In this document: one piece after another, positions 983 through 13,438 of the stretch
How positions within the stretch are numbered: position 1 is the first letter of the stretch
Layout of the letters: each line of letters opens with the position of its first letter
NCBI GenBank assembly: GCA_904419285.1
Contig: CAJFQZ010000017.1
Span: 124,082 to 188,081 of the forward strand
DNA from: Lachnospiraceae bacterium UBA1818
Lineage (GTDB): Bacteria; Bacillota; Clostridia; Lachnospirales; Lachnospiraceae
Direction of reading: 5' to 3'
DNA: 64,000 bases
Position numbers and translations under genes: made by a program
The notes under the pieces: generated by a model
Database searches by the model: none
What the model was told of the DNA's origin: nothing
What the model saw: the letters and a program-made list of their open reading frames with translations, nothing else

Positions 983-3900
983 TTAGAACCTGTTTTCAAT
1001 AGCTTTTTCAACCACTTTTACCCTGTTCTCCCCGAAATGATTCATCAGCCTGCCCAGAACCTGCTGATTTATCCTGATATTGCGGTTCCTCGGCAGCCGT
1101 TTCACCGCCCGCTCCTTCGCACAGTAGATCACGACTTCATCGTCTCCCTCCGAGTCCGCCAGGTATCCGTACACGATCTGTTCTTCCTCAAGATATGTCT
1201 TCTTGTCGGGGAACTGGATCCAGAGTTCCCGCTTCGTCTTTTCAAAGGGAATGACCTTCTCGCAGATCAGCTTGCTGGCACGTTCATCTTCCTCAGAGAC
1301 TCTCCCCCGGATGAACACCTTCTTATCTGTCTCCAGATATTCCCGGTTCTTCTCGTAGTCTCTCGGGAACACGACCACTTCTACGGTTCCCAGAAGATCC
1401 TCCAGTGTGACGAAAGCCATCATCTGATTCGTCTTTGTGTGCTTGACTGTCTTATCCGTGATCATACCGCCGATGATCTCTCGCGAACCCTCGCGAACCT
1501 TGGTCCTTCCGGTCTCTTCATCAGGCTGGAAGTCCGCGGTCGTCGCGGTGATGACCTTTCTCCATCTGTCCTCATATTCCTCCAGCGGATGTCCGCTGAT
1601 ATAGATCCCCAGCACCTCCTTCTCGAACGCCAGGAGGTTCTCTCTGGAATATTCTCCGACATCGGGGAGACGGATCTGGAATTCTTCCTTCTGTTCTTCC
1701 GAAACCATATCGAAGAGCGTCATCTGTCCCGCCATGGAATATTTCTTCTCCTGATTGACATGATCCACGATCTGGATGTAGATCGTCATGAACTGCTTGC
1801 GGGTCCCGCCGAGCGTATCCAGAGCGCCGGACTTGATCAGGTTCTCTATGGCCCTCTTGTTCAGCGCGTCTCTGGAGGCCATTCTTGTGATGAAGTCCTC
1901 CAGGTTCTTAAACAGACCGAACTCCTTCCGCTCGGCAACGATCGCCTGGATCACCGGGCGGCCGATGCTCTTGATCGCTGCCAGGCCGTAGCGGATATTT
2001 CCTCCGTCCACAGAAAAATCTGCCTCTCCCTTGTTGATGTCCGGGGGGAGGATCCGGATGTTCATCTGCCTGCACGCGTAAATATATTCTGCCACCTTCG
2101 GCGGATTTTCAATCACGGAGGTCATGAGAGCCGCCATGAATTCCACCGGATAATAATATTTCAGCCATGCTGTCTGATAGGAGACCACCGCATACGCCGC
2201 CGCGTGGGACTTATTGAACGCATATTTTGCAAAATCGATCATTTCGTCATAAATCTTGTTTGCAGTTTTCTCATCAATGCCGTTCTTGATACAGCCCGGA
2301 ACATTCGCCGCCTCGTCTCCGTAGACAAAGATCTGGCGCTCCTTCTGCATCACGTCCCCTTTCTTCTTGGACATGGCGCGGCGGAGAAGGTCGCTCCTTC
2401 CCAGTGTATATCCGGCCAGATCACGCACGATCTGCATGACCTGTTCCTGATAGACAATGCAGCCGTAGGTCGGCGCCAGGATCGGTTCCAGCTGGGGACA
2501 GTCGTAAGTGATGGAGCTCTGATCGTTCTTTCCCTTGATATACTGGGGGATAAAATCCATCGGACCCGGACGGTACAGCGCGATCCCGGCAATGATATCC
2601 TCCAGACTGTGGGGCTTGAGCTCCTTCATGAAGCCCTTCATCCCGCTGCTCTCGATCTGGAAGATTCCGTCCGTCTTTCCCGTGCCGATGTAATCCATCA
2701 CGGCCTGGTCATTGTAATCGATCTTCTCAATATCCAGATCCGGATCCTTTCTCCTCGCCATCCGGACGGCATTCTGGATCACCGTCAAAGTCCGGAGTCC
2801 CAGGAAATCCATCTTCAGAAGTCCCAGCTCCTCCAGTGTGGTCATGGTAAACTGTGTCGTGATCGTACCGTCTGCCGCCCTGGACAGAGGTACATATTCG
2901 TCCACAGACTTCTGGCTGATAACAACGCCTGCGGCATGCATGGAGCTGTGCCGCGGAAGCCCCTCCAGACGCTTCGCCATGTCGATCAGGTTCTTCACCT
3001 GTTCATCATTTTCATAGGTCCTGCGCAGCTCCGGATTCTCCTGAAGCGCTTTGTCGATCGTGATATTCAGTTCCTGGGGGATCATCTTCGCGATGCTGTC
3101 CACGAACGCATAGGGCAGATCCATCACACGCCCCACGTCGCGGATCACGCCCCGCGCCGCCAGGGTTCCGAAAGTGACGATCTGCACTACCCGGTCCTTG
3201 CCGTACTTGCGCACCACATAATCGATGACCTCCTGCCTTCTCTCATAGCAGAAGTCCACGTCGATATCGGGCATGGACACACGCTCCGGGTTCAGAAACC
3301 GCTCGAACAGGAGCTGATAACGGATCGGGTCAATGGTCGTGATCTCCAGGCAGTAGGAGACAATGCTTCCCGCCGCAGACCCTCTTCCCGGACCGACTGC
3401 GATCCCGTGATCCTTCGCATACTTGATGAAATCCCATACAATAAGGAAATAATCCACATACCCCATGTTCCGGATCGTATCCAGCTCGTAGCTCAGACGG
3501 TCCTTCAGTTCCTGGGACGGCTCCGGTCCGTACCGCTTCTCCAGCCCCTCCCAGCAGAGCTTCTGCAGATATTCCCATGACGTCATCCCGTCCGGCACGT
3601 CGTATTTGGGCAGCTTGGTCACTCCGAACTCGATCTCCACAGAGCAGCGGTCCGCGATCTTCTGCGTGTTCTCCAGCGCCTGGAGCGCATACGGGAACAG
3701 ACGCTCCATCTCCTCCGGAGACTTCACATAATACTGCCCACCTTCGTAGCGCATGCGGTTTTCGTCCGCCAGCTTCTTGCCTGTCTGGATGCAGAGGAGG
3801 ATATCGTGGGCTTTCGCGTCCTCCGCATAGGTATAGTGGACGTCGTTCGTGGCGACAAGCTCGATGCCTGTCTCCTGGGACATCTTGAGGAGCTGCTGGT

Positions 3901-4459
3901 TCACCAGCGCCTGATCCGGCAGCCCGTGATCCTGCAGCTCGAGGAAATAGTTATTCTCCCCGAAGATATCCCTGTACTCAAGCGCAGTCTTCTTCGCCTC
4001 TTCATACAGACCTTTCACGATATACCTCTGGACTTCTCCCGCAAGACATGCGCTGAGGGCAATGATCCCGCCGTGATACTGGCGCAGCAGTTCCTTGTCC
4101 ACCCTGGGTCTGTAATAATATCCTTCCACAAATCCTTTGGAGACGATCTTCATCAGATTAGCATATCCTTCATTGTTCTCCGCAAGAAGGACGAGATGAT
4201 AGTATCTGTCATCTCCGCCTGTCACCTCTCTGTCAAACCTGGAATTCGGCGCCACATAGACCTCACAGCCGAGGATCGGGTTGATCCCCTGCTTCTTCGC
4301 TTCCCTGTAGAAATCGATGACGCCGTACATCACTCCGTGATCCGTGATCGCAGCGCTGTTCATCCCCAGCTCTTTGACCCTTGACACATATTCTTTTATT
4401 TTATTCGATCCGTCCAGAAGGCTGTATTCTGTATGAACATGCAGATGTACAAAACTCAT
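983..4459 (-). CDS. dnaE: DNA polymerase III alpha subunit, DnaE type
   Basis: Replicative/lesion-extending polymerase; in Clostridia it normally works beside PolC. It has 1158 residues, the usual size. The N-terminal PHP domain opens with HLHVHTEYSLLDG. The polymerase active site has the three-Asp motif PDIDVDF near residue 397, preceded by the GPGRGSAAGS loop. The C-terminal OB-fold (near GGMITD...FVTLED) is present. There is no inserted exonuclease domain, which separates it from PolC. The ATG at 4459 has a GAAGGTG RBS. It lies between cvfB (upstream) and pfkA (downstream), all on the minus strand. Confidence 0.97.
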   Translation of the reverse strand: MSFVHLHVHTEYSLLDGSNKIKEYVSRVKELGMNSAAITDHGVMYGVIDFYREAKKQGINPILGCEVYVAPNSRFDREVTGGDDRYYHLVLLAENNEGYANLMKIVSKGFVEGYYYRPRVDKELLRQYHGGIIALSACLAGEVQRYIVKGLYEEAKKTALEYRDIFGENNYFLELQDHGLPDQALVNQQLLKMSQETGIELVATNDVHYTYAEDAKAHDILLCIQTGKKLADENRMRYEGGQYYVKSPEEMERLFPYALQALENTQKIADRCSVEIEFGVTKLPKYDVPDGMTSWEYLQKLCWEGLEKRYGPEPSQELKDRLSYELDTIRNMGYVDYFLIVWDFIKYAKDHGIAVGPGRGSAAGSIVSYCLEITTIDPIRYQLLFERFLNPERVSMPDIDVDFCYERRQEVIDYVVRKYGKDRVVQIVTFGTLAARGVIRDVGRVMDLPYAFVDSIAKMIPQELNITIDKALQENPELRRTYENDEQVKNLIDMAKRLEGLPRHSSMHAAGVVISQKSVDEYVPLSRAADGTITTQFTMTTLEELGLLKMDFLGLRTLTVIQNAVRMARRKDPDLDIEKIDYNDQAVMDYIGTGKTDGIFQIESSGMKGFMKELKPHSLEDIIAGIALYRPGPMDFIPQYIKGKNDQSSITYDCPQLEPILAPTYGCIVYQEQVMQIVRDLAGYTLGRSDLLRRAMSKKKGDVMQKERQIFVYGDEAANVPGCIKNGIDEKTANKIYDEMIDFAKYAFNKSHAAAYAVVSYQTAWLKYYYPVEFMAALMTSVIENPPKVAEYIYACRQMNIRILPPDINKGEADFSVDGGNIRYGLAAIKSIGRPVIQAIVAERKEFGLFKNLEDFITRMASRDALNKRAIENLIKSGALDTLGGTRKQFMTIYIQIVDHVNQEKKYSMAGQMTLFDMVSEEQKEEFQIRLPDVGEYSRENLLAFEKEVLGIYISGHPLEEYEDRWRKVITATTADFQPDEETGRTKVREGSREIIGGMITDKTVKHTKTNQMMAFVTLEDLLGTVEVVVFPRDYEKNREYLETDKKVFIRGRVSEEDERASKLICEKVIPFEKTKRELWIQFPDKKTYLEEEQIVYGYLADSEGDDEVVIYCAKERAVKRLPRNRNIRINQQVLGRLMNHFGENRVKVVEKAIENRF

Positions 4460-4592: not shown

Positions 4593-5423
4593 TTATTTTT
4601 TCAGCCGGATGGCTTCCTGCTCTCCGCTGATCTCGATCTTTCCCTGCTTCAGCAGACGTCCCACAGCTCTCTTGAACGCCGCCTTGCTCATGTCGAACTC
4701 TCTTCGGATCTCTTCCGGAGAGGACTTGTCCGTGACTGCGAGCCTGCCTCCGCACTGCTCCAGCCTTGCGAGGAGCAGCTCCGCATCCTTGTCCATCTGC
4801 TCCGGGATCCTGCCGCGCACGCTTAAATCCAGCTTGCCGTCCGCCTTCACCGACGTGACTCTCGCCTCGACCAGCTGGCCGATCCGCATCCGTCCATAGA
4901 CTTCCCTGCGGGGTATCATCGCCGAATACTGATTATCCACAGCCACATAGACGCCGTATTCTCTGTTGATCCCGTATACGGTGCCGCGCACCATATCGTT
5001 CTTCTTATATGGGGAATCTGTTCTGAGCAGAGACGATATCTTCATCGTGGCGCAGAGACGTCCGCTCTTGTCAACATAGAGACTGACGAGACACCGGTCT
5101 CCCTTTTCCACCTTCTCCGTCTGCTCTTTATATGGGAGAAGAAGATCCTTCTCCAGCCCCCAGTCGAGAAATGCTCCCACGCGGCCCACATCCACGACCT
5201 CCAGGACCGCCAGCTCTCCCAGCGTCAGCTTCGGCTCCCTTGTCGTGGCGATCATACGGTCGGAAGAGTCCTTATATAAGAAAACCTCTACCGGATCGCC
5301 GACCTCTATCCCTTCCGGAACCTGCTTCTTCGGGAGAAGCACTCTCTCTTCATCGCTTCCCAGGTACACTCCGAAATCCACGATCTTGACCACGGTCAGC
5401 ACCTGTTTTTCTCCTAATCTCAT
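4593..5423 (-). CDS. cvfB: S1-like RNA-binding protein CvfB
   Basis: 276 residues with successive S1/OB-like beta-barrel segments: an N-terminal domain starting MRLGEKQVLTVV, a second near residues 70-130, and a canonical S1 domain near 145-210 (VRGTVYGINREYGVYV). A C-terminal winged-helix-like part follows (EEIRREFDMSKAAFKRAVGRL). This is the architecture of CvfB/YitL, an RNA-binding protein linked to virulence gene expression in staphylococci; its exact role in Clostridia is not known. The start at 5423 has an AAGGAG RBS. It is transcribed toward dnaE with a 133-base gap. Confidence 0.88.
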   Translation of the reverse strand: MRLGEKQVLTVVKIVDFGVYLGSDEERVLLPKKQVPEGIEVGDPVEVFLYKDSSDRMIATTREPKLTLGELAVLEVVDVGRVGAFLDWGLEKDLLLPYKEQTEKVEKGDRCLVSLYVDKSGRLCATMKISSLLRTDSPYKKNDMVRGTVYGINREYGVYVAVDNQYSAMIPRREVYGRMRIGQLVEARVTSVKADGKLDLSVRGRIPEQMDKDAELLLARLEQCGGRLAVTDKSSPEEIRREFDMSKAAFKRAVGRLLKQGKIEISGEQEAIRLKK

Positions 5424-5539: not shown

Positions 5540-6288
5540 TCATTTAATCAGACGGAATTCTGTTGACAATAAATAAACATATGAAGTGTACGAATATACA
5601 CTTCCATCACAACGTGCAGTAAGTACTAATTCATCCACCCCAGAAAGTGGGATTGAATAATTTTGTGGCTCTACTCCTGCTGTAAAATGCTCTGTAGCCT
5701 GTATTAATTCCTCTCCATTTCTAAACTCCAGCCATGCCTGACGCTTAGTATCATTATTCACAGATGATAATGCTAATGTAAATTCTAATCTGCTGAACTC
5801 TCCATTTAATTTATAGGTTACTTCCTGGAAACCATTATTGTTAGTCTGATAATTAGTACAATATATTACATATGGTCTATTGTTTCCTTCATTATCCGTG
5901 GTTCCGTTATATATACAAAATCTCCTACGTTCCCTATAAATTCCTGCATATGAAACAAATCGGTTACTGTTGGTTCTTCTGGTGTCACTGGTGTGTCTCC
6001 AGGATCCCCGCTTCTTGAAGCCCCATCATTTCCATCATCAGTGTCCCCCTTCTGTCCTTCTGTAGATCCTGCACTATTCCCTTTACCGTCATCCGTTTCT
6101 GTACCTTTACTGCTAGACGGATTAGTACCTGTACTTGAAATATTAGATATTAAGGCTATCATTGCTCCTATTACCGCTACGGCTGCAAGCAACTTCAAAA
6201 AGCTTTTATCAACCTTCAATATTATATACGCCCCTACAATTGTAACAATTAACGGAATTAAAATATCGCTAATAATAACTTCACCCAT
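5540..6288 (-). pseudogene. Two-TM protein with linker and NPCBM-like domain, split by a frameshift
   Basis: Two minus-strand frames add up to one protein of about 249 residues. The first (6288 down to 5866) encodes two N-terminal membrane helices (about residues 5-50), then a Ser/Thr/Asp/Gly-rich linker. The second frame continues through NEGNNRPYVIYC and FQEVTYKLNGEF and ends with a beta-rich stretch at 5540. That second part resembles NPCBM/NEW2-type jelly-roll domains, an assignment from pattern only. The frames meet at a (TA)4 tract at 5908-5915; removing one TA unit joins them as DFVYNGTTDNEG. The gene is clearly more AT-rich than its neighbours and may be acquired. Function is unknown. 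A sequencing error is possible. Confidence 0.6.
5908..5915. repeat. (TA)4 dinucleotide tract at the frame break
   Basis: A TATATATA tract sits exactly where the two halves of the 5540-6288 gene lose frame. Three units instead of four would give one continuous reading frame, so slipped-strand change by one unit is the simplest explanation. Confidence 0.6.
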
Positions 6289-6571: not shown

Positions 6572-9500
6572 CTACAGTTCAAACAAACTCATCTGATGAC
6601 AGTTCTCTTCTTTTCTCTTCTTCTCCGCATTTTCTGTCTCTATCAGTCCCTGCGGAAGTGTTTTTAGAAACTCAGATGTTTCTCCGGATGTCGTCAGGAT
6701 CAGTTCTTCCTTTGCCCTCGTCATGCCCACATAGAACAGCCGTCGCTCTTCTTCCCTGTCTGTGGGATGCGTTTCACTCTCCAGGGGGATCGATCCCTGA
6801 TCCGCCCCGTAGATGAACACAACCGGGAATTCCAGCCCTTTGGAGCCGTGCAGGGTCATGATGGTGACCGCGTCGGAAGTGTATTTTTTCGTGCCGCACC
6901 GCTTCAGGTCGCTCTCCACGCCCAGGCTGAGTGCGTCCAGGAATTCCGGCATTGTCTTGTAAAACACAGTCATCTGAAGAAGCTTCTGCATGGCAGGGCT
7001 GTCTGAGAGTCCCAGTTCTTCCATCCACTGCTCCAGGAATTTCTGTGGCTTTTTCTTCTGATAGAGCGGGCGGAACTTTTCTGCTGCATTTTCGATGATC
7101 TCTGCTGTCATCTCATTCCACTCCAGCTTCCACAGCTCCTCAGCACAGGACTTCACAGAGGCAGGATCCTGCGGCTCCTCCAGATACCGGAAGAAGCAGA
7201 TGCTCTCCTGGACGGCCCTGTCTGTTAAGAAGTCCTCTCTGCCGGCTGCGATATACGGGATGCTCTCCTTCTTCAGGCATTTCTCCACAAGCTCTGCCTG
7301 GTGATGGGTCCTGCAGAGCACTGCGATCTCATCGAATCCTCTGGGCCTGCGCTCTCCCATCTCCCAGGCCGCTTCATGAGCCTCAAGCATTCCGATTCCG
7401 CCCACCAGACGGTTGATCTCCTTTGCGATAAAAACAGCCTCTCCCATGGGGCTCCCTGCGCGGACAAGCCGTACGGGAAGACCGTCCGGACAGTTCGGGT
7501 GGAGCAGACGCCCATCACACTGTTCCGTGTCTTTTTCCCCGCTCTGCTCTGCATCCGCCTTCTCTCCCTGGGAGATCATCTCCAGCGCCGCGCTCAGGAT
7601 CTGCGGAGATGACCGGTAGTTTTCCTTCAGCTGTATCACCTCAAGGTCACTATATTCTTTCTTAAGCTTCTCAAAACATTCCGCATCTGCGCCTCGGAAC
7701 CCGTAGATGGACTGATCCGGATCCCCGATCACAAACAGCTCCCGCCCCACTCTGCTCCACAGCTTCACGAGCCGGAACTGCGCCGGATTGATATCCTGGA
7801 ATTCATCGACCAGAAGATAGCGGAACTGCCGCTCCCATCCTTCGCTCAGGCTGCCGTCCTCGATCCGCTCTGCCGTGCGCAGCAGAAGCTCGTCAAAATC
7901 CCAGAGCTTCCGCAGAGCCTTCTTCTCCTCATAGCTCCGGAACGCCTGCTGCCGCAGCTCCCTGATGTTCTCTCCCTCCTGAGACATGGAAAGGCCGGAC
8001 TTGTACCTTGAGGCTGCCTCAAGAAATTCTTTCGTGTTCATCGGGATCCCGGTCTCGGCGATGGTTTCTTCTGCCATCCTGCGCTGTTCTTCGTCCGTGA
8101 TGAGCACTGAGTCCTCGCCCTGCGCCTTCAGAAAATTCAGGCACACAGCATGGAAGGTCCCGATCTGCATGGTGCGCGCCGCCTGCTTTTTCCCGGTCTC
8201 CCGCTGGATCCTCTCTCTCATCTCCGCAGCCGCCTGGTTCGTAAAGGTGACCGCAGTAATGTCAGACGGCTTCACCTTCCTGTATTCCAGAAGGTACCTG
8301 AGCCGTGAGACAAGCGTCTTCGTCTTTCCCGTACCCGGGCCGGCCTTCACAGCGATATGAGGCGAACTGCACCGCACAGCATATGCCTGTTCCGGGTTCA
8401 GGACCGGCGCCGAGGCGGCGCTTTTCTCTTTTCCGTCTGTCACGTCCCGGCCGCCACGCTCCGACGCAGTCTCCTGCCCTTTCTCCGGCTCTGCCGAGGT
8501 CTTTTCCTGCTGTACGCTCTGCTCCCCGCTGCATTCTCCGCCGGCAGGTAAGCCGCCCTCATCTGATCTGCCGGCAGATGAGCCGATCGCATCTGATCCT
8601 TTGGCAGGTGATCCATCCGCATCTGATCCGCCCGCCTGCGCCGTGCCCGCGCCCAGCAGATCGAAGAAATTCATCTGTCCCTCTGTATTGTTCAGCTCCT
8701 CAGCGCTGAACAGACGGATAACGCCGTATTCTCCGTCGAATCCCGGGATGCGTTCCACCTGGCCGCTGCGCAGCCTCTCGATTCCTTCCGCCACACGGCT
8801 CCCCGACACTCTGCGGATATCTTCCAGAGGGAGGTTTCTCAGGATCTCGAATTCCGGTCCAAGCTCAGAGAGAATCCTGCGATATTCCCGTTCCGCCTTT
8901 TTGCTGGCGGCAGATGTCCCGATGGATGCGCCGATGACTTCCGGGAGCGGCACAAGGCTCTCGAACCGCTTTGCATTTTCCCGCACATACCCCTCCGGGC
9001 GGTCTGAGAGCTCCTCCACCCGATGGGAGACTCCGATGGTGATCTTCCTGCCGCACACCGGACATTTTCCGTTATACTTCATCGTCTCGGACGGAGTGAG
9101 ACAGAGGTTGCACTTCCGGTGTCCGTCCATATGATATTTTCCTTCTTCCGGGAAGAACTCGATCGTCCCGCCAAGCCCTTCCCCGGTCTGGATTGCTTTC
9201 GCCAGCGCCTCATATGACATCGGAATGTCGAACAGGTTCGCCTCCCGGCCCAGCTTTGCCGGGGAGTGGGCGTCTGAATTTGAGATGAGCTGGAAGCGGT
9301 CCAGAGCGGACACGCGCCAGTTCATCGGCGGATCTGAAGAAAGCCCGGTCTCCATGGCGTGTATGTACGGCGTGAGATCTTCAAAGCACTCCTCCACTGT
9401 GTCAAATCCGGAAAACGCGCCGAACAGAGAAAAGTGGGGCGTCCAGATATGCGCCGGCACATAGACTGCGTCAGGGCAGAGCTCCAGCAGGATCTCCAGC

Positions 9501-9928
9501 AGATCATGGCAGTCCAGCCCAAGGATCGGGCGGCCGTCAGAATGGATATTCCCGATCTGTTCCAGCTTCGCGGAGATCTTTTCCGCGTCCTCCAGCCCCG
9601 GCAGAAGGATAAGGCTGTGTACCTTGCGGACCTTCCCGTTTTTCTTGTAGATCGAACTGATCTCGCCTGTGACCACAAAGCGGGGAATCATTTCCCCCGG
9701 CACGCCTTCCTCCCGGAGCCGGTACTCATCTTTCAGCACATACAGCCCGTCCTCCGCCGGTTCCAGTTTCTCCGTCAGTTCCTCCCGCCATGCCGGATGC
9801 GTGAAGTCTCCGGTACCCACGATGTGGATTCCTTTCCTCCGCGCCCAGAGGTCAAGATGCTCCGGCGTACAGTCTTTGCTCGTTGCCCGGGAATAACGGG
9901 AATGAATGTGTAAATCTGCTATGTACAT
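6572..9928 (-). CDS. EndoQ-like PHP nuclease fused to UvrD-family helicase
   Basis: 1118 residues from the ATG at 9928, chosen for its AGAGAGGTGA RBS; the frame stays open further upstream. Residues 1-390 match the endonuclease Q family. They have PHP metal motifs (DLHIHSRYSRATSKD, GTGDFTHP, SNSDAHS) and a four-Cys zinc site near 272-292 (CNLCLTP and CPVCGRK). EndoQ nicks DNA 5' of deaminated bases. A Gly/Ser/Asp/Glu-rich linker (about 440-510) leads to an SF1A helicase: AGPGTGKT near 528, VDEFQD near 705, GDPDQSIYGFRGA, and C-terminal YVGMTRAKEELIL. The fusion suggests nicking followed by unwinding from the nick; this is inference. It overlaps the RBS region of brnQ's end, so the two are probably co-translated. 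Confidence 0.88.
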   Translation of the reverse strand: MYIADLHIHSRYSRATSKDCTPEHLDLWARRKGIHIVGTGDFTHPAWREELTEKLEPAEDGLYVLKDEYRLREEGVPGEMIPRFVVTGEISSIYKKNGKVRKVHSLILLPGLEDAEKISAKLEQIGNIHSDGRPILGLDCHDLLEILLELCPDAVYVPAHIWTPHFSLFGAFSGFDTVEECFEDLTPYIHAMETGLSSDPPMNWRVSALDRFQLISNSDAHSPAKLGREANLFDIPMSYEALAKAIQTGEGLGGTIEFFPEEGKYHMDGHRKCNLCLTPSETMKYNGKCPVCGRKITIGVSHRVEELSDRPEGYVRENAKRFESLVPLPEVIGASIGTSAASKKAEREYRRILSELGPEFEILRNLPLEDIRRVSGSRVAEGIERLRSGQVERIPGFDGEYGVIRLFSAEELNNTEGQMNFFDLLGAGTAQAGGSDADGSPAKGSDAIGSSAGRSDEGGLPAGGECSGEQSVQQEKTSAEPEKGQETASERGGRDVTDGKEKSAASAPVLNPEQAYAVRCSSPHIAVKAGPGTGKTKTLVSRLRYLLEYRKVKPSDITAVTFTNQAAAEMRERIQRETGKKQAARTMQIGTFHAVCLNFLKAQGEDSVLITDEEQRRMAEETIAETGIPMNTKEFLEAASRYKSGLSMSQEGENIRELRQQAFRSYEEKKALRKLWDFDELLLRTAERIEDGSLSEGWERQFRYLLVDEFQDINPAQFRLVKLWSRVGRELFVIGDPDQSIYGFRGADAECFEKLKKEYSDLEVIQLKENYRSSPQILSAALEMISQGEKADAEQSGEKDTEQCDGRLLHPNCPDGLPVRLVRAGSPMGEAVFIAKEINRLVGGIGMLEAHEAAWEMGERRPRGFDEIAVLCRTHHQAELVEKCLKKESIPYIAAGREDFLTDRAVQESICFFRYLEEPQDPASVKSCAEELWKLEWNEMTAEIIENAAEKFRPLYQKKKPQKFLEQWMEELGLSDSPAMQKLLQMTVFYKTMPEFLDALSLGVESDLKRCGTKKYTSDAVTIMTLHGSKGLEFPVVFIYGADQGSIPLESETHPTDREEERRLFYVGMTRAKEELILTTSGETSEFLKTLPQGLIETENAEKKRKEENCHQMSLFEL

Positions 9929-9933
9929 TGAAA

Positions 9934-11298
9934 TCACCTCTCTGTACTTTCCCTTGATCGTAAAGAATAAACCATATGGACCCCAAGCCCGATCAGCAGT
10001 CCCGCCAGAGCCGGGCATACCCAGCCGAAGCCCTGCTCCGAAAAGGGAAGGACACCCGACGCGGCCCGTATTACTGTCTCAAGATGCAGGACATCACGCA
10101 GTACCTCCGGAAGAGTCCTCAGGAAGTCAAAGACCGCTCCCGCTGCCGTAAACCCGATCGTCCACCGCAGCACCCTTCTGTCATCCTGGAAGAATCTTCC
10201 GCAGAGGGTGAGCAGGATCAGCACAACAGCCAGCGGATACAGGAACATCAGAACCGGCATGGAAAATGCGATGATCGCATCCAGCCCAAGATTCGCCACC
10301 AGGAACGACAGGACACAGAAGGATACCGCCCAGACGCGGTACGACGGGCCTCCCGGGAAGATCTTCACAAAGGTCTCTCCGCAGCTTGTGATCAGCCCCA
10401 CTGCAGTCTTCAGGCACGCCACTGTGACAGTCGCCGCCAGGATGACCGCGCCGGCGCCGCCGAAATAGTATTCTGCGATCTGCGCGAGTGCTTCCCCTCC
10501 ATTGGACGCTGCCGGGAATACGCCCCGGCTCTGCGCGCCTACAACCGTTACCAGGACATAGATCACCGCCATCAGAAGCGCGCTGAAGGCTCCCGCCTTC
10601 ACTGTATTTGCCGCCACTTCTCCCGGCTCCTTCACCCCCAGGCTCCGGATCACGTCCACCACCACGATCCCGAACGCGAGTCCCGCCAGGACATCCATTG
10701 TATTATATCCTTCCAGCAGCCCCGTGAAAAACGCTGCCTGCTCATAGGCCCCGGAAGCCGAGATCTCCCCGATGTTTCCCATCGGTGACAGGACAGCGCG
10801 TATGACAAGGACTCCCAGAAGACAGAGAAAGAGCGGATTCAGCACTTTCCCCACCCAGGTCAGGATCTCTCCCGGCCGCAGGGAAAAGAAAAGCACCGCC
10901 GCGAAAAACACTGCCGAAAATAGCGCCAGAGCGGCCGTCTGCATCTCTACCGGAAGGATCCGCTCTACTCCCACAGTAAATGAAACAGTAGCGCAGCGCG
11001 GGATCGCAAGGAACGGCCCGATGGCGAGATAAAGCGCACAGGTGAAAAAAAGGCCGTACCGCTTTCCCACACGGCTGCTCAGCTCAAGCAGACTTTCCTC
11101 CCGGCTGATCCCCAGCGCCGCAACACCAAGAAGAGGCAGGCCCACGCCGGTGATAAGAAACCCGGCTGCCGCCTGCCACATATTACTCCCCGCAAGCTGT
11201 CCCATGGATGCCGGGAAGATCAGGTTGCCCGCCCCGAAAAACATGCCGAACAGCATACTTGCCACAAATATAAGTTCTCTGAACCTCAGTTTTTTCAT
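9934..11298 (-). CDS. brnQ: Branched-chain amino acid:cation symporter (LIVCS family)
   Basis: A 455-residue integral membrane protein that takes up Leu/Ile/Val with a cation. Its start is typical of the family: MKKLRFRELIFVASMLFGMFFGAGNLIFP, whose GAGNLIFP core is the BrnQ hallmark; about twelve hydrophobic segments follow. I chose the ATG at 11298 over the longer frame to 11355 because the extra 19 residues are polar and the family starts here. Its TGA stop (9934-9936) lies inside the RBS of the downstream EndoQ-helicase gene, so translation is likely coupled. No terminator separates it from the upstream two-component system. Confidence 0.92.
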   Translation of the reverse strand: MKKLRFRELIFVASMLFGMFFGAGNLIFPASMGQLAGSNMWQAAAGFLITGVGLPLLGVAALGISREESLLELSSRVGKRYGLFFTCALYLAIGPFLAIPRCATVSFTVGVERILPVEMQTAALALFSAVFFAAVLFFSLRPGEILTWVGKVLNPLFLCLLGVLVIRAVLSPMGNIGEISASGAYEQAAFFTGLLEGYNTMDVLAGLAFGIVVVDVIRSLGVKEPGEVAANTVKAGAFSALLMAVIYVLVTVVGAQSRGVFPAASNGGEALAQIAEYYFGGAGAVILAATVTVACLKTAVGLITSCGETFVKIFPGGPSYRVWAVSFCVLSFLVANLGLDAIIAFSMPVLMFLYPLAVVLILLTLCGRFFQDDRRVLRWTIGFTAAGAVFDFLRTLPEVLRDVLHLETVIRAASGVLPFSEQGFGWVCPALAGLLIGLGVHMVYSLRSRESTER

Positions 11299-11400
11299 CT
11301 TTTTTCCATCCCCTGTCAGTTCTGCTCCGATACGTCGGCAGGTTCCGCCGCCCATATCCGAAGCCGTCTATTGCCATTCTACTACAGGGGAAATCAGGAT

Positions 11401-12663
11401 TCAAGGGGTGGGAAATTCCAGGCACGCCTTGAACTGATCGCAGTCGATCTTGATGTCAAATTCTCCTCCCAGCGCTTTCGCATAAGTGCTCACGATCGCC
11501 AGTCCGAGACCGTTTCCTTCACTGCTCCTGGACTTGTCGCCTCTCGCAAACCGCTCCACAATATCCTCTTTCGTAAAGTCCATATAGTATCCGGCGGTAT
11601 TAGTGATCTCAAGACAGAGCTTCTCCGGCTTTCCCTGTTCTTTCCCTTTCCGGTATGTCTTCACAAACACGCGGGTCCCTTTTGCCGAATATTTAAGCGC
11701 ATTCTCCATCAGATTCTGGACGATCCTGTAGAAATACATATTGTCCGTCTCGACCTCCGTGCTCTCGTCCGTGAGCTGCTCTACAAAGCTCAGCCCGCTC
11801 TCTTTGATCCGGTCGTCCAGATCCGCGAAGATCTGATCGATCAGACGGTTCACCTCAAACTTCTCCACATGGAGCTCCACATTGCCGCTGCTCGCTTTAG
11901 CCAGTGAGAACAGACTGTTGATCATCTCCTTGAGCTTTTCCGCCCGCTCTGAGATAACTTCCACATAATCTTTCACAACATCGCTGAGCTCTTCCTTTTT
12001 GATCAGCTCGATATACCCCACCATGGACGTCAGCGGCGTCTTCAGGTCATGGGACACATTGGTGATCAGGTCCACCCTGAGCTGATCGCTCCGGGACACC
12101 TTTTCCAGACTCTTTCTCTCGATCTCCAGCGCCTCGCTGATCCGCTGCTCGGTCCGCTCTTCCAGATGATCGATGATGAAGTCCAGCTTCTTCTGCCAGA
12201 ACCGATGGGACAGTGCCAGGTACAGCGCCGTCTGAATCAGGACGGTCATCACCGTCAGATATCCGGATGCCGTATACATATATCCCTCGCTGATCATGCT
12301 CAGAAGATACACGCACGCCAGGAAGAGGATCACGCCGCCCGCCTTCAGGATCTTCTTCTCCAGCTGTCTCGATGCCTCTCTCCATTCTTCATAGTAATCT
12401 TCCTGCTCCGGCTGCCATCCGCCGAGTTTTCTGTTCAGGAAATTATTGAAGAAAAGCACGGATCCGCCGCCGAACGAAAGATTTCCGCAAATGAAAAAAA
12501 GAAGACTCGCCTCATCCGAATAATATCCTCTGTATATAATATTTATCAGAAAGAAAAAAAGTCCTCCGGCGATCGCTCCGGCGCCCAGCACCATGATCAG
12601 ATCCCGGTTCCTGGAATTGATCTCTCTCCACTTTTCACTTGTATTTTTCCATCTTGTAGCCAA
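11401..12663 (-). CDS. Sensor histidine kinase, VanS-like
   Basis: 420 residues. The N-terminal half has four hydrophobic segments in two pairs (about 22-75 and 105-150) with little extracytoplasmic sequence, so the signal is probably sensed in the membrane. A coiled stretch leads to the phosphoacceptor H-box NVSHDLKTPLTSMVGY near residue 203, then N-box QNLMENALKYS and G-box GNGLGLAIVSTY. The start appears to be TTG at 12663, with an AAGGTGG RBS nine bases upstream, overlapping the response regulator gene by 29 bases. It ends with VanS/YycG-like features but the stimulus cannot be read from sequence. Pairs with the regulator at 12635-13342. Confidence 0.87.
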   Translation of the reverse strand: MATRWKNTSEKWREINSRNRDLIMVLGAGAIAGGLFFFLINIIYRGYYSDEASLLFFICGNLSFGGGSVLFFNNFLNRKLGGWQPEQEDYYEEWREASRQLEKKILKAGGVILFLACVYLLSMISEGYMYTASGYLTVMTVLIQTALYLALSHRFWQKKLDFIIDHLEERTEQRISEALEIERKSLEKVSRSDQLRVDLITNVSHDLKTPLTSMVGYIELIKKEELSDVVKDYVEVISERAEKLKEMINSLFSLAKASSGNVELHVEKFEVNRLIDQIFADLDDRIKESGLSFVEQLTDESTEVETDNMYFYRIVQNLMENALKYSAKGTRVFVKTYRKGKEQGKPEKLCLEITNTAGYYMDFTKEDIVERFARGDKSRSSEGNGLGLAIVSTYAKALGGEFDIKIDCDQFKACLEFPTP

Positions 12664-13342
12664 TTCCCCACACCACCTTTACATATCTTGGTTTCTTTGT
12701 ATCAATCTCGATTTTTTCCCGGATGTGCCTGATGTGCACCATCACCGTGTTCTCCACTGCGAAATTCGCCGATTCCTCCCAGACATTTTCATAGATCTGC
12801 TCCGCGGAAAACACCTGCCCCGGATGCTCCATGAGAAGCTCGAGGATCTTATACTCTGTCGCAGTCAGGTGCACCTCCTCTCCCTCGACAATGACAATCC
12901 TCTGCTTCTTATCCAGCACAAGTCCCCCATTGACGATCCGGTCTTCATCTGCCTTCGGCGCCGCGCCGCCCCAGGCATGGTATCTTCGCAGATGAGCCTT
13001 CACCCGCGCGATCAGCTCCGACGCATTGTAGGGCTTCTCCACATAATCATCCGCCCCGAGAATGAGCCCTGATACCTTATCGCTCTCCTCAGTCTTCGCC
13101 GAGAGAATGATCACCGGTATCCGGTACTGCTCCCTTAGCTTCATCAGCGCCGACAGTCCGTTCATCTTCGGCATCATCACATCCAGGAGGATAAGGTCGA
13201 TCTTCTCCCTCTCCAGCGCGTCAAGCGCCTCCATCCCATCATACGCCTTCACTACTTGATAGCCTTCATATTTCAGCAGTTCGCTGATCGAGTAGACGAT
13301 CTCTCTGCTGTCGTCCACCACAAGGATCGTTTCTCTGTCCAT
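12635..13342 (-). CDS. OmpR/PhoB-family response regulator, VanR-like
   Basis: 235 residues from the ATG at 13342 (GGGGGGCAGCTT precedes it; the frame is open a further 23 codons, which look non-coding). Receiver domain: acidic pair in VVDDS, phosphoacceptor Asp in LLDVMMPKMNG, conserved Lys in YVEKPYNASELIARV. A C-terminal winged helix follows (LTATEYKILELLMEHPGQVFSAEQIYENVW). Forms an overlapping two-gene unit with the kinase downstream. Targets are unknown; brnQ lies just after the pair. Confidence 0.92.
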   Translation of the reverse strand: MDRETILVVDDSREIVYSISELLKYEGYQVVKAYDGMEALDALEREKIDLILLDVMMPKMNGLSALMKLREQYRIPVIILSAKTEESDKVSGLILGADDYVEKPYNASELIARVKAHLRRYHAWGGAAPKADEDRIVNGGLVLDKKQRIVIVEGEEVHLTATEYKILELLMEHPGQVFSAEQIYENVWEESANFAVENTVMVHIRHIREKIEIDTKKPRYVKVVWGIGYKMEKYK

Positions 13343-13409
13343 AAGCTGCCCCCCCTGTTCCTGCCTGTATTTCAGCCCTTGCGGCTGCTGTCTTTTGTTC
13401 ATATATACC

Positions 13410-13438
13410 ATAGTAAATGCGAATTAAAAAAACCTCAA
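13410..13438 (-). promoter_or_regulatory. Sigma-A-type promoter for the two-component genes
   Basis: On the minus strand, TTGAGG (-35) and TACTAT (-10) are separated by 17 bases, about 70 bases upstream of the response regulator start. Read by eye only. Confidence 0.5.

Follow-up and report, generated by a model that had tools for sequence, protein, structure and literature searches.

What does a bacterial cell gain from joining, in one chain, a nuclease predicted to cut at deaminated bases and a motor of the kind that unwinds DNA? The question is raised by a gene in a 64,000-nucleotide stretch of Lachnospiraceae bacterium UBA1818 (contig CAJFQZ010000017.1, forward-strand positions 124,082 to 188,081; hereafter the window), where an Endonuclease Q (EndoQ)-like nuclease and a UvrD-type helicase are encoded by a single open reading frame (ORF) of 1118 codons. 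An initial annotation of the window had placed this gene correctly at 6572-9928, on what is the minus strand, and had proposed that its product is a self-contained repair machine. The latter is unlikely: two conserved motifs of the beta-clamp type are present in the chain, from which it follows that the fusion is probably clamp-tethered. We consider it probable that the fusion is a clamp-tethered repair machine, in which EndoQ-type nicking would be followed by peeling of the lesion strand beside the clamp. The mechanism proposed earlier is thus half right, and what is new is the pair of clamp-type motifs, which makes the domain fusion a testable clamp-coupled enzyme.

The gene starts with an ATG at 9928-9926 and stops at 6574-6572; an alternative in-frame ATG lies upstream at 10018, within the listed ORF, and the start at 9928 is preferred because homologues agree on it and because of a ribosome-site-like stretch, GAGAGGTGA. 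Domain searches and alignment agree with the initial annotation that PHP motifs, a CxxC...CxxC site and a helicase lie in one chain of 1118 residues, and the acidic, glycine-containing linker that it described is borne out by an AlphaFold model in which the predicted local distance difference test (pLDDT), 82.3 on average, falls under 50 at residues 416-507. The same layout is kept across 56 aligned fusions (that of the window and 55 loci from a scan of genome collections; the structure alignment took 55 of 64 fusions), which argues that the joining is not due to chance. Mean pairwise distances among the 56 are 0.88 in the linker (residues 426-508), 0.52 in the helicase and 0.30 in EndoQ, the nuclease half being the less diverged of the two.

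As judged from sequence, the fusions bear two beta-clamp-type motifs, GQMNFF right after the EndoQ core and QMSLF at the extreme C-terminus, and this pair, missed in the initial annotation, is the main finding. G417, Q418 and Q1112 are invariant in all 56 aligned fusions, and conservation along the chain is lowest in the linker that separates the halves. Most fused chains end in a Q-x-x-L-F-type sequence, commonly QMSLF or QLSLF. The clamp consensus is given as QL[S/D]LF, more generally QxxLF (PMC12309361); QMSLF fits the general form, and QMNFF is a near form with F for L at position 4. Both motifs are exposed or terminal, with disordered surroundings in the predicted structure. After three duplicates were dropped from 109 fused chains (near-duplicates remain), the internal motif was found by a loose pattern in 92 and by a tight one in 77 of the 106 distinct fusions, and the C-terminal motif in 99 of the 102 with a complete end (83 tight), a count that omits three chains cut by contig ends (L085, L160, L191) and one whose frame ends without the tail (L192). 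Both motifs are present by the loose pattern in 85 of these 102. Against this, the tight motif turns up just twice at other places in 105 fused chains (113,320 residues), ends only 2 of 973 neighbouring ORFs in a mechanically defined set (one of them encoding the helicase part of a split fusion), and appears in 1 of the 190 open frames of at least 100 codons in the window, namely the fusion gene itself; the tight patterns of the background and fusion counts differ slightly, the latter also admitting M at position 4.

The placement of the motifs recalls known clamp clients. PolC from the same genome ends in QLSLFDF, so that a QLSLF-type motif likewise stands at the extreme C-terminus, the fusion differing by a second, internal copy behind its nuclease. 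A PolC QLSLF peptide binds Bacillus subtilis DnaN with a dissociation constant (KD) of 3.8 uM (PMC12309361), an affinity for a single peptide at which two motifs could pay. In archaea, Thermococcus kodakarensis EndoQ binds PCNA through a C-terminal PCNA-interacting protein (PIP) box and is stimulated by PCNA, and C-terminal motifs of the clamp consensus are described for bacterial homologues of EndoQ (PMC4858679). The internal motif of the fusion lies about 12 residues past the core end and the PIP box of Pyrococcus furiosus EndoQ (PfuEndoQ) lies farther away (residues 411-424, deleted in PMC4858679, the core alignment ending at 382), an unequal spacing that puts the two in the same region and in different columns. 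The C-terminal tail motif is found in 0 of 35 classic EndoQs (30 from the class, 5 from the phylum), and neither motif is kept in any of 23 helicase-less fusion-type relatives. These 23 standalone genes comprise 20 distinct sequences, among them L218 with only 1,356 downstream bases, and exclude a split fusion (L176), two contig-cut loci (L101, L193) and four with short downstream sequence (L094, L096, L121, L125). As the internal motif is missing from all 23, it is kept or lost along with the helicase, a co-occurrence for which deletions with a common boundary could also account.

If the protein acted without a clamp, as a self-contained EndoQ and helicase, its Q..LF tails would be unrelated to clamps or would bind something else. 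Both catalytic halves do look intact, and clamp binding is a motif match; however, two clamp-consensus motifs are present, their glutamines are invariant amid an unconserved tail and linker, and they are placed as in the PolC of the same genome and in the archaeal PIP-box region, which makes a clamp-free enzyme unlikely.

The identification of the nuclease half as EndoQ-like draws on family, residue and fold comparisons. It matches NCBIfam TIGR00375 (E 4.4e-55, residues 4-404, 187.6 bits) and the PfuEndoQ structure 5zb8 (E 1.6e-51, residues 4-404/406; 32-33% identity). In PfuEndoQ, the residues D6, L7, H8, H10, E76, H84, H139, E167, S191, D192, A193 and H194 are named as conserved or possibly important (PMC4357722). 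By a hand count along the alignment, all twelve have identical counterparts in the window protein (D5, L6, H7, H9, E89, H104, H160, E193, S218, D219, A220 and H221), eleven of them being present in all 56 fusions and L6 in 55. We take these PHP residues to have a metal role. All four cysteines of the zinc-type site are aligned and identical to those of PfuEndoQ, C273, C289 and C292 being kept in 56 of 56 fusions and C276 in 50. Foldseek comparison with 5zb8 and 7k30 gave E-values of 2.2e-27 to 2.5e-25 and template modelling scores (TMt) of 0.84-0.87. Thus, in alignment and whole-fold comparison, made without residue-by-residue superposition, no mismatch with EndoQ in the PHP or zinc residues was seen, and the twelve residues, the cysteines and the fold support the EndoQ-type identity that had been proposed from the letters of the window. 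EndoQ incises 5' of the lesion, yielding a 3'-OH and a 5'-phosphate (PMC4357722), and its base pocket sits between the catalytic and zinc domains (PMC11354406). The window protein resembles Endonuclease Q of P. furiosus, T. kodakarensis, Methanosarcina acetivorans and Bacillus pumilus (TIGR00375) in its PHP-type fold, residues, four-cysteine site and C-terminal part, and both have a clamp-type motif shortly after the core (the PIP box in archaeal EndoQ), whereas the window protein adds a helicase and a second clamp-type motif at its new C-terminus.

The other half matches UvrD/PcrA (Pfam PF00580, E 2.9e-64; PF13361, E 1.2e-43), residues 510-1082 aligning with PcrA, Rep and UvrD, and is a predicted member of the UvrD family distinct from PcrA, Rep or UvrD proper. 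SF1A motors translocate 3' to 5'. The "full SF1A helicase" of the initial annotation holds for the motifs, as Q, I, Ia and II-VI are all present, but not for the 2B region, which spans 119 residues against 171 in PcrA (386-557) and is thus about 52 shorter by a hand count of residue pairs along the HMMER alignment. In Foldseek, DNA-bound Deinococcus radiodurans UvrD (chains of 4c30) gave TMt values of 0.70-0.74, and DNA-free UvrD and PcrA gave 0.60-0.63. Monomers of the UvrD family are kept inactive by their 2B region until dimerisation or a partner shifts it, and UvrD is activated by MutL (PMC13238157). With 2B shortened, the fused motor may work as a monomer, or the attached nuclease may serve as its switch. 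Compared with UvrD, PcrA and Rep, the fusion shares SF1A motifs I-VI and differs by its N-terminal nuclease, short 2B and C-terminal clamp-type motif.

Together, these features suggest how a clamp-tethered repair enzyme might work. The chain would ride on the DnaN clamp, whose dimer offers two clefts; each cleft may take up one of the motifs, and two weak contacts would thereby combine into one firm tether. The EndoQ half would nick 5' of a hypoxanthine, uracil or apurinic/apyrimidinic (AP) site, leaving a 3'-OH and placing the lesion on the downstream 5' end. The fused 3'-to-5' motor would then load onto the undamaged strand at the nick, and its travel on that strand would strip away the end with the lesion as a 5' flap and leave the 3'-OH free for synthesis. 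The clamp would pass this 3'-OH to a polymerase, and a 5' nuclease and ligase would complete the repair. The shortened 2B could lessen autoinhibition of the motor, or the nuclease and the clamp could replace the usual activator (MutL or dimerisation). In this manner, one chain riding on the replication machinery may run the whole repair reaction.

A more specific form of this scheme is single-chain, replisome-associated post-replicative repair, which we regard as tentative and less likely than not. The fusion would hold both DnaN clefts behind the fork, scan the new strand for pool-derived deoxyuridine or deoxyinosine (dU/dI), nick, peel and pass the 3'-OH to the polymerase on the same clamp, and the orientation of the clamp would give strand choice, making deaminated-base repair akin to clamp-directed mismatch repair. 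NucS/EndoMS is a clamp-bound mismatch nuclease. Clamp-guided incision followed by strand removal would be common to it, to MutL-UvrD mismatch repair and to the fusion; the latter differs in putting incision, motor and clamp motifs in one chain and in its expected lesion, a deaminated base. If the clamp-tethered reading is true, incision, strand removal and clamp coupling of a repair pathway are fused in one gene, and what happens after EndoQ has cut could be studied with a single purified protein plus DnaN and a polymerase. Close relatives within one genus, with and without helicase and clamp motifs, offer a natural experiment, and the named carriers include many gut Clostridia.

Several points weigh against a clamp-tethered enzyme. 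Nicking, clamp binding, unwinding and polarity are all predictions from sequence, and the predicted template modelling score (pTM) of the model, 0.60, means that the relative placement of the two halves is not predicted. The EndoQ half stays below the curated TIGR00375 cut-off of 326.6 bits, and it is therefore named an EndoQ-like homologue and no TIGR00375 equivalog; 0 of the 391 genomes of the class reach this cut-off, classic EndoQs included. The helicase half likewise scores below the curated cut-offs (309.5 against 911.2 bits for PcrA, 290.4 against 951.45 for Rep and 260.6 against 1144.45 for UvrD). The zinc-type site has lost C276 in 6 of 56 fusions. The internal motif is the weaker one, 14 of the 106 distinct fusions failing its pattern (all 14 keep GQ), and the C-terminal pattern fails in 3 of 102, with the near forms QMSLS, QLSLA and QISLI; moreover, the fusions are related to each other and are no independent samples. 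EndoQ was retained on about 10 branches from which the helicase has apparently disappeared, so that the latter is dispensable. A cluster of HhH-GPD glycosylases adjoins 9 of 135 loci (the 135 include 3 classic EndoQs and some twice-fetched genomes, and many of their flanks are cut by contig ends); 3 of the 9 are fused and 6 have EndoQ without the helicase, some being the same genome twice. UDG occurs in 19 of 20 genomes, which provides uracil repair with a backup and led us to reject compensation for missing uracil repair as an explanation. EndoV was found in 0 of 37 genomes, and as 17 of these lack EndoQ (20 have it), its absence gives no pointer to EndoQ. On the zinc-type site, S or R replaces C276 in L150, L159, L181, L185, L189 and L200, and the second cysteine is also missing in 2 of 26 EndoQ cores (L118, L125).

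As a family, the fusion is old and has been kept in patches among bacteria of the Clostridia type. Its own genome holds one full-length copy, with nine further partial matches, nearly all in the helicase region. Within the genus, 15 of 25 genomes (own included) have a fusion-length frame of more than 1,000 codons, 7 have an EndoQ frame of 417-496 codons (near a contig end in two, G018 and G021) and 3 have none. Among the 391 genomes of the class, 15, own included, have a frame of more than 1,000 codons, to which G069, a fusion cut by a contig end, is added; 32 have a classic EndoQ of about 400 residues, 2 have a helicase-less EndoQ of the fusion type and 2 gave partial or unsure matches (G229, G042), matches above E 1e-6 (mostly 230-285-codon frames or second gene pieces) standing outside these counts. 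A search for the same fusion across Firmicutes, suggested in the initial annotation, thus found it, and the accompanying query whether EndoQ alone is absent there is answered in the negative by the classic and short-frame genes. In the order, 16 of 295 genomes match (own included), and in the phylum at least 202 of 398 do so at E <= 1e-15. A scan of named genomes gave at least 575 relatives, and the titles of the best 80, which were kept, are mostly Lachnospiraceae, Ruminococcaceae/Oscillospiraceae and Clostridia, plus Christensenella, Anaerovorax and one metagenome-assembled genome (MAG) labelled Treponema, with an "uncultured Ruminococcus" first and Mediterraneibacter MAGs in rows 2-7. The Treponema-labelled MAG (sp. 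UBA4873; L189) carries a fusion that may reflect gene transfer or a binning error. Another locus, L225 in G960, encodes a longer, diverged form of the family (1188 residues) with an internal QAVLF and a C-terminal QLRLF. Neither a description of an EndoQ-UvrD fusion, among the literature matches listed, nor an article on TIGR00375 was found in open-licence PMC articles.

Phylogeny points to repeated helicase loss. Two trees were built, each from part of the rows. In the 55-row tree, the fusion-type clade stands apart from classic EndoQ (support 100/100). A fused row, L118, branches deepest within the clade, followed by L125, a standalone on a long branch, and further standalones are scattered among fused rows; the tree contains 10 changes between the fused and standalone states, all 10 forced by well-supported branches, and an earlier 90-row tree contains 11, at least 8 of them forced. 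The roughly 10 changes are best read as helicase losses. Although the tree alone cannot separate gain from loss, loss is favoured by the fused rows at or near the base, by the standalones of the genus lying in the same cvfB-dnaE surroundings and by the correlated distances of the two halves (Mantel r 0.65, 0 of 2000 permutations). At standalone loci (25 and three more, the split L176 excepted), helicase queries match at most 18-37 residues at the linker start. Relocation of the helicase elsewhere was rejected in 10 standalone genomes, three of them single-contig (G017, G589, G665), whose best matches (33-41% identity) equal UvrD paralogues of EndoQ-less genomes.

This pattern also bears on the idea that the helicase is the clamp-bound part, serving general fork or transcription-conflict work like Rep or PcrA, with EndoQ as a passenger that keeps its own repair role. 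The joint loss of helicase and both motifs in the standalones is what such an arrangement would give, the motifs travelling with the helicase. However, of 196 genomes searched with the helicase at E <= 1e-70, with the top few candidates scored in each, 11 gave a match, and all 11 hold the fusion, one of them contig-cut; in addition, the distances of the two halves co-vary and one motif lies directly behind the nuclease. We therefore hold a passenger EndoQ to be rather improbable.

Patchiness would suit an anti-phage nuclease-helicase like Gabija GajA-GajB, attacking phage DNA with deaminated or modified bases, and PADLOC GajB profiles do match the helicase (best E 1e-80); these profiles, however, describe UvrD-like motors and may match any of them. 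No GajA (OLD-type nuclease) was found among the six window neighbours scanned with NCBIfam, at the window locus only, and the neighbours identified, which were not PADLOC-scanned, are housekeeping and repair genes. Among 50,697 phage records, none matches the EndoQ part, and the plasmid records include none that covers 80% of the fusion protein; a defence role is accordingly very doubtful, and a mobile or viral origin was rejected on the phage, plasmid and viral-contig scans, the last with 1 partial match at a contig end. That match (L231:4-381, 50% identity) is a 52-kb IMG/VR contig that begins inside an EndoQ relative, perhaps a provirus host flank. Finally, a degenerate or assembly-made chimera, for which the split L176 and the contig-end cuts of L193, L101 and others might speak, is ruled out by the family data, its likelihood being negligible given that 109 fused chains, of which 106 are distinct, come from many families and also from the single-contig genomes G111, G187 and G422, and that their catalytic columns are invariant.

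Table 1. Coordinates, in the window, of the fusion gene, its parts and its neighbours.
Feature	Position	Strand	Basis or remark
EndoQ-UvrD fusion gene, 1118 aa	6572..9928	minus	
EndoQ domain (PHP + zinc + C-terminal part), aa 1-404	8717..9928	minus	PfuEndoQ alignment, Foldseek
Four-cysteine zinc-type site C273 C276 C289 C292	9053..9112	minus	PfuEndoQ alignment
Internal beta-clamp-type motif QMNFF, aa 418-422	8663..8677	minus	fusion alignment, pattern counts
Disordered, poorly conserved linker, aa 423-509	8402..8662	minus	pLDDT < 50, pairwise distances
UvrD/PcrA-type SF1A helicase, aa 510-1101	6626..8401	minus	Pfam, NCBIfam, Foldseek
Shortened 2B region, aa 900-1019	6872..7231	minus	hand count on HMMER alignment
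C-terminal beta-clamp-type motif QMSLF, aa 1112-1116	6581..6595	minus	fusion alignment, pattern counts
BrnQ/LivCS transporter gene, 5 bp upstream of fusion	9934..11355	minus	TIGR00796, E 6.2e-126
CvfB-like S1 protein, downstream	4593..5423	minus	16/135 loci, all genus or Mediterraneibacter-labelled
dnaE, DNA polymerase III alpha, downstream	983..4459	minus	neighbour in 14/135 loci

As for the surroundings of the gene, the initial annotation had seen in its coupling to brnQ an odd form of regulation. The narrow gap does exist at this locus; in the wider set, however, only 2 of 135 loci have a related gene upstream, and coupling as regulation was rejected on this count. One conserved operon was rejected as well, the best neighbour cluster, the CvfB-like one, occurring in 16 of 135 loci; the adjacency of cvfB and dnaE is a genus trait. 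A yaaA cluster adjoins 14 loci and, together with the HhH-GPD cluster, fits repair-type neighbours (Pfam was run on 2 yaaA and 3 HhH-GPD members). Two of the six window neighbours had no NCBIfam match, the CvfB-like protein (276 residues) and a protein of 140 residues encoded between the fusion and cvfB (5866-6288), which also lacks a Pfam match and has one hydrophobic stretch and a Ser/Gly/Asp-rich part. Upstream of brnQ, at 11401-13411, lie a histidine kinase and an OmpR-type response regulator that match PnpS/VanS/PhoR and VanR/PhoB-type models, their best rows below the cut-offs. The other neighbouring ORF that ends in the tight clamp-type motif encodes an SRAP (HMCES-type) protein (L152:1046-1648) with the terminal sequence YEQISLF, and clamp-bound AP-site protection in Clostridia is perhaps worth a look.

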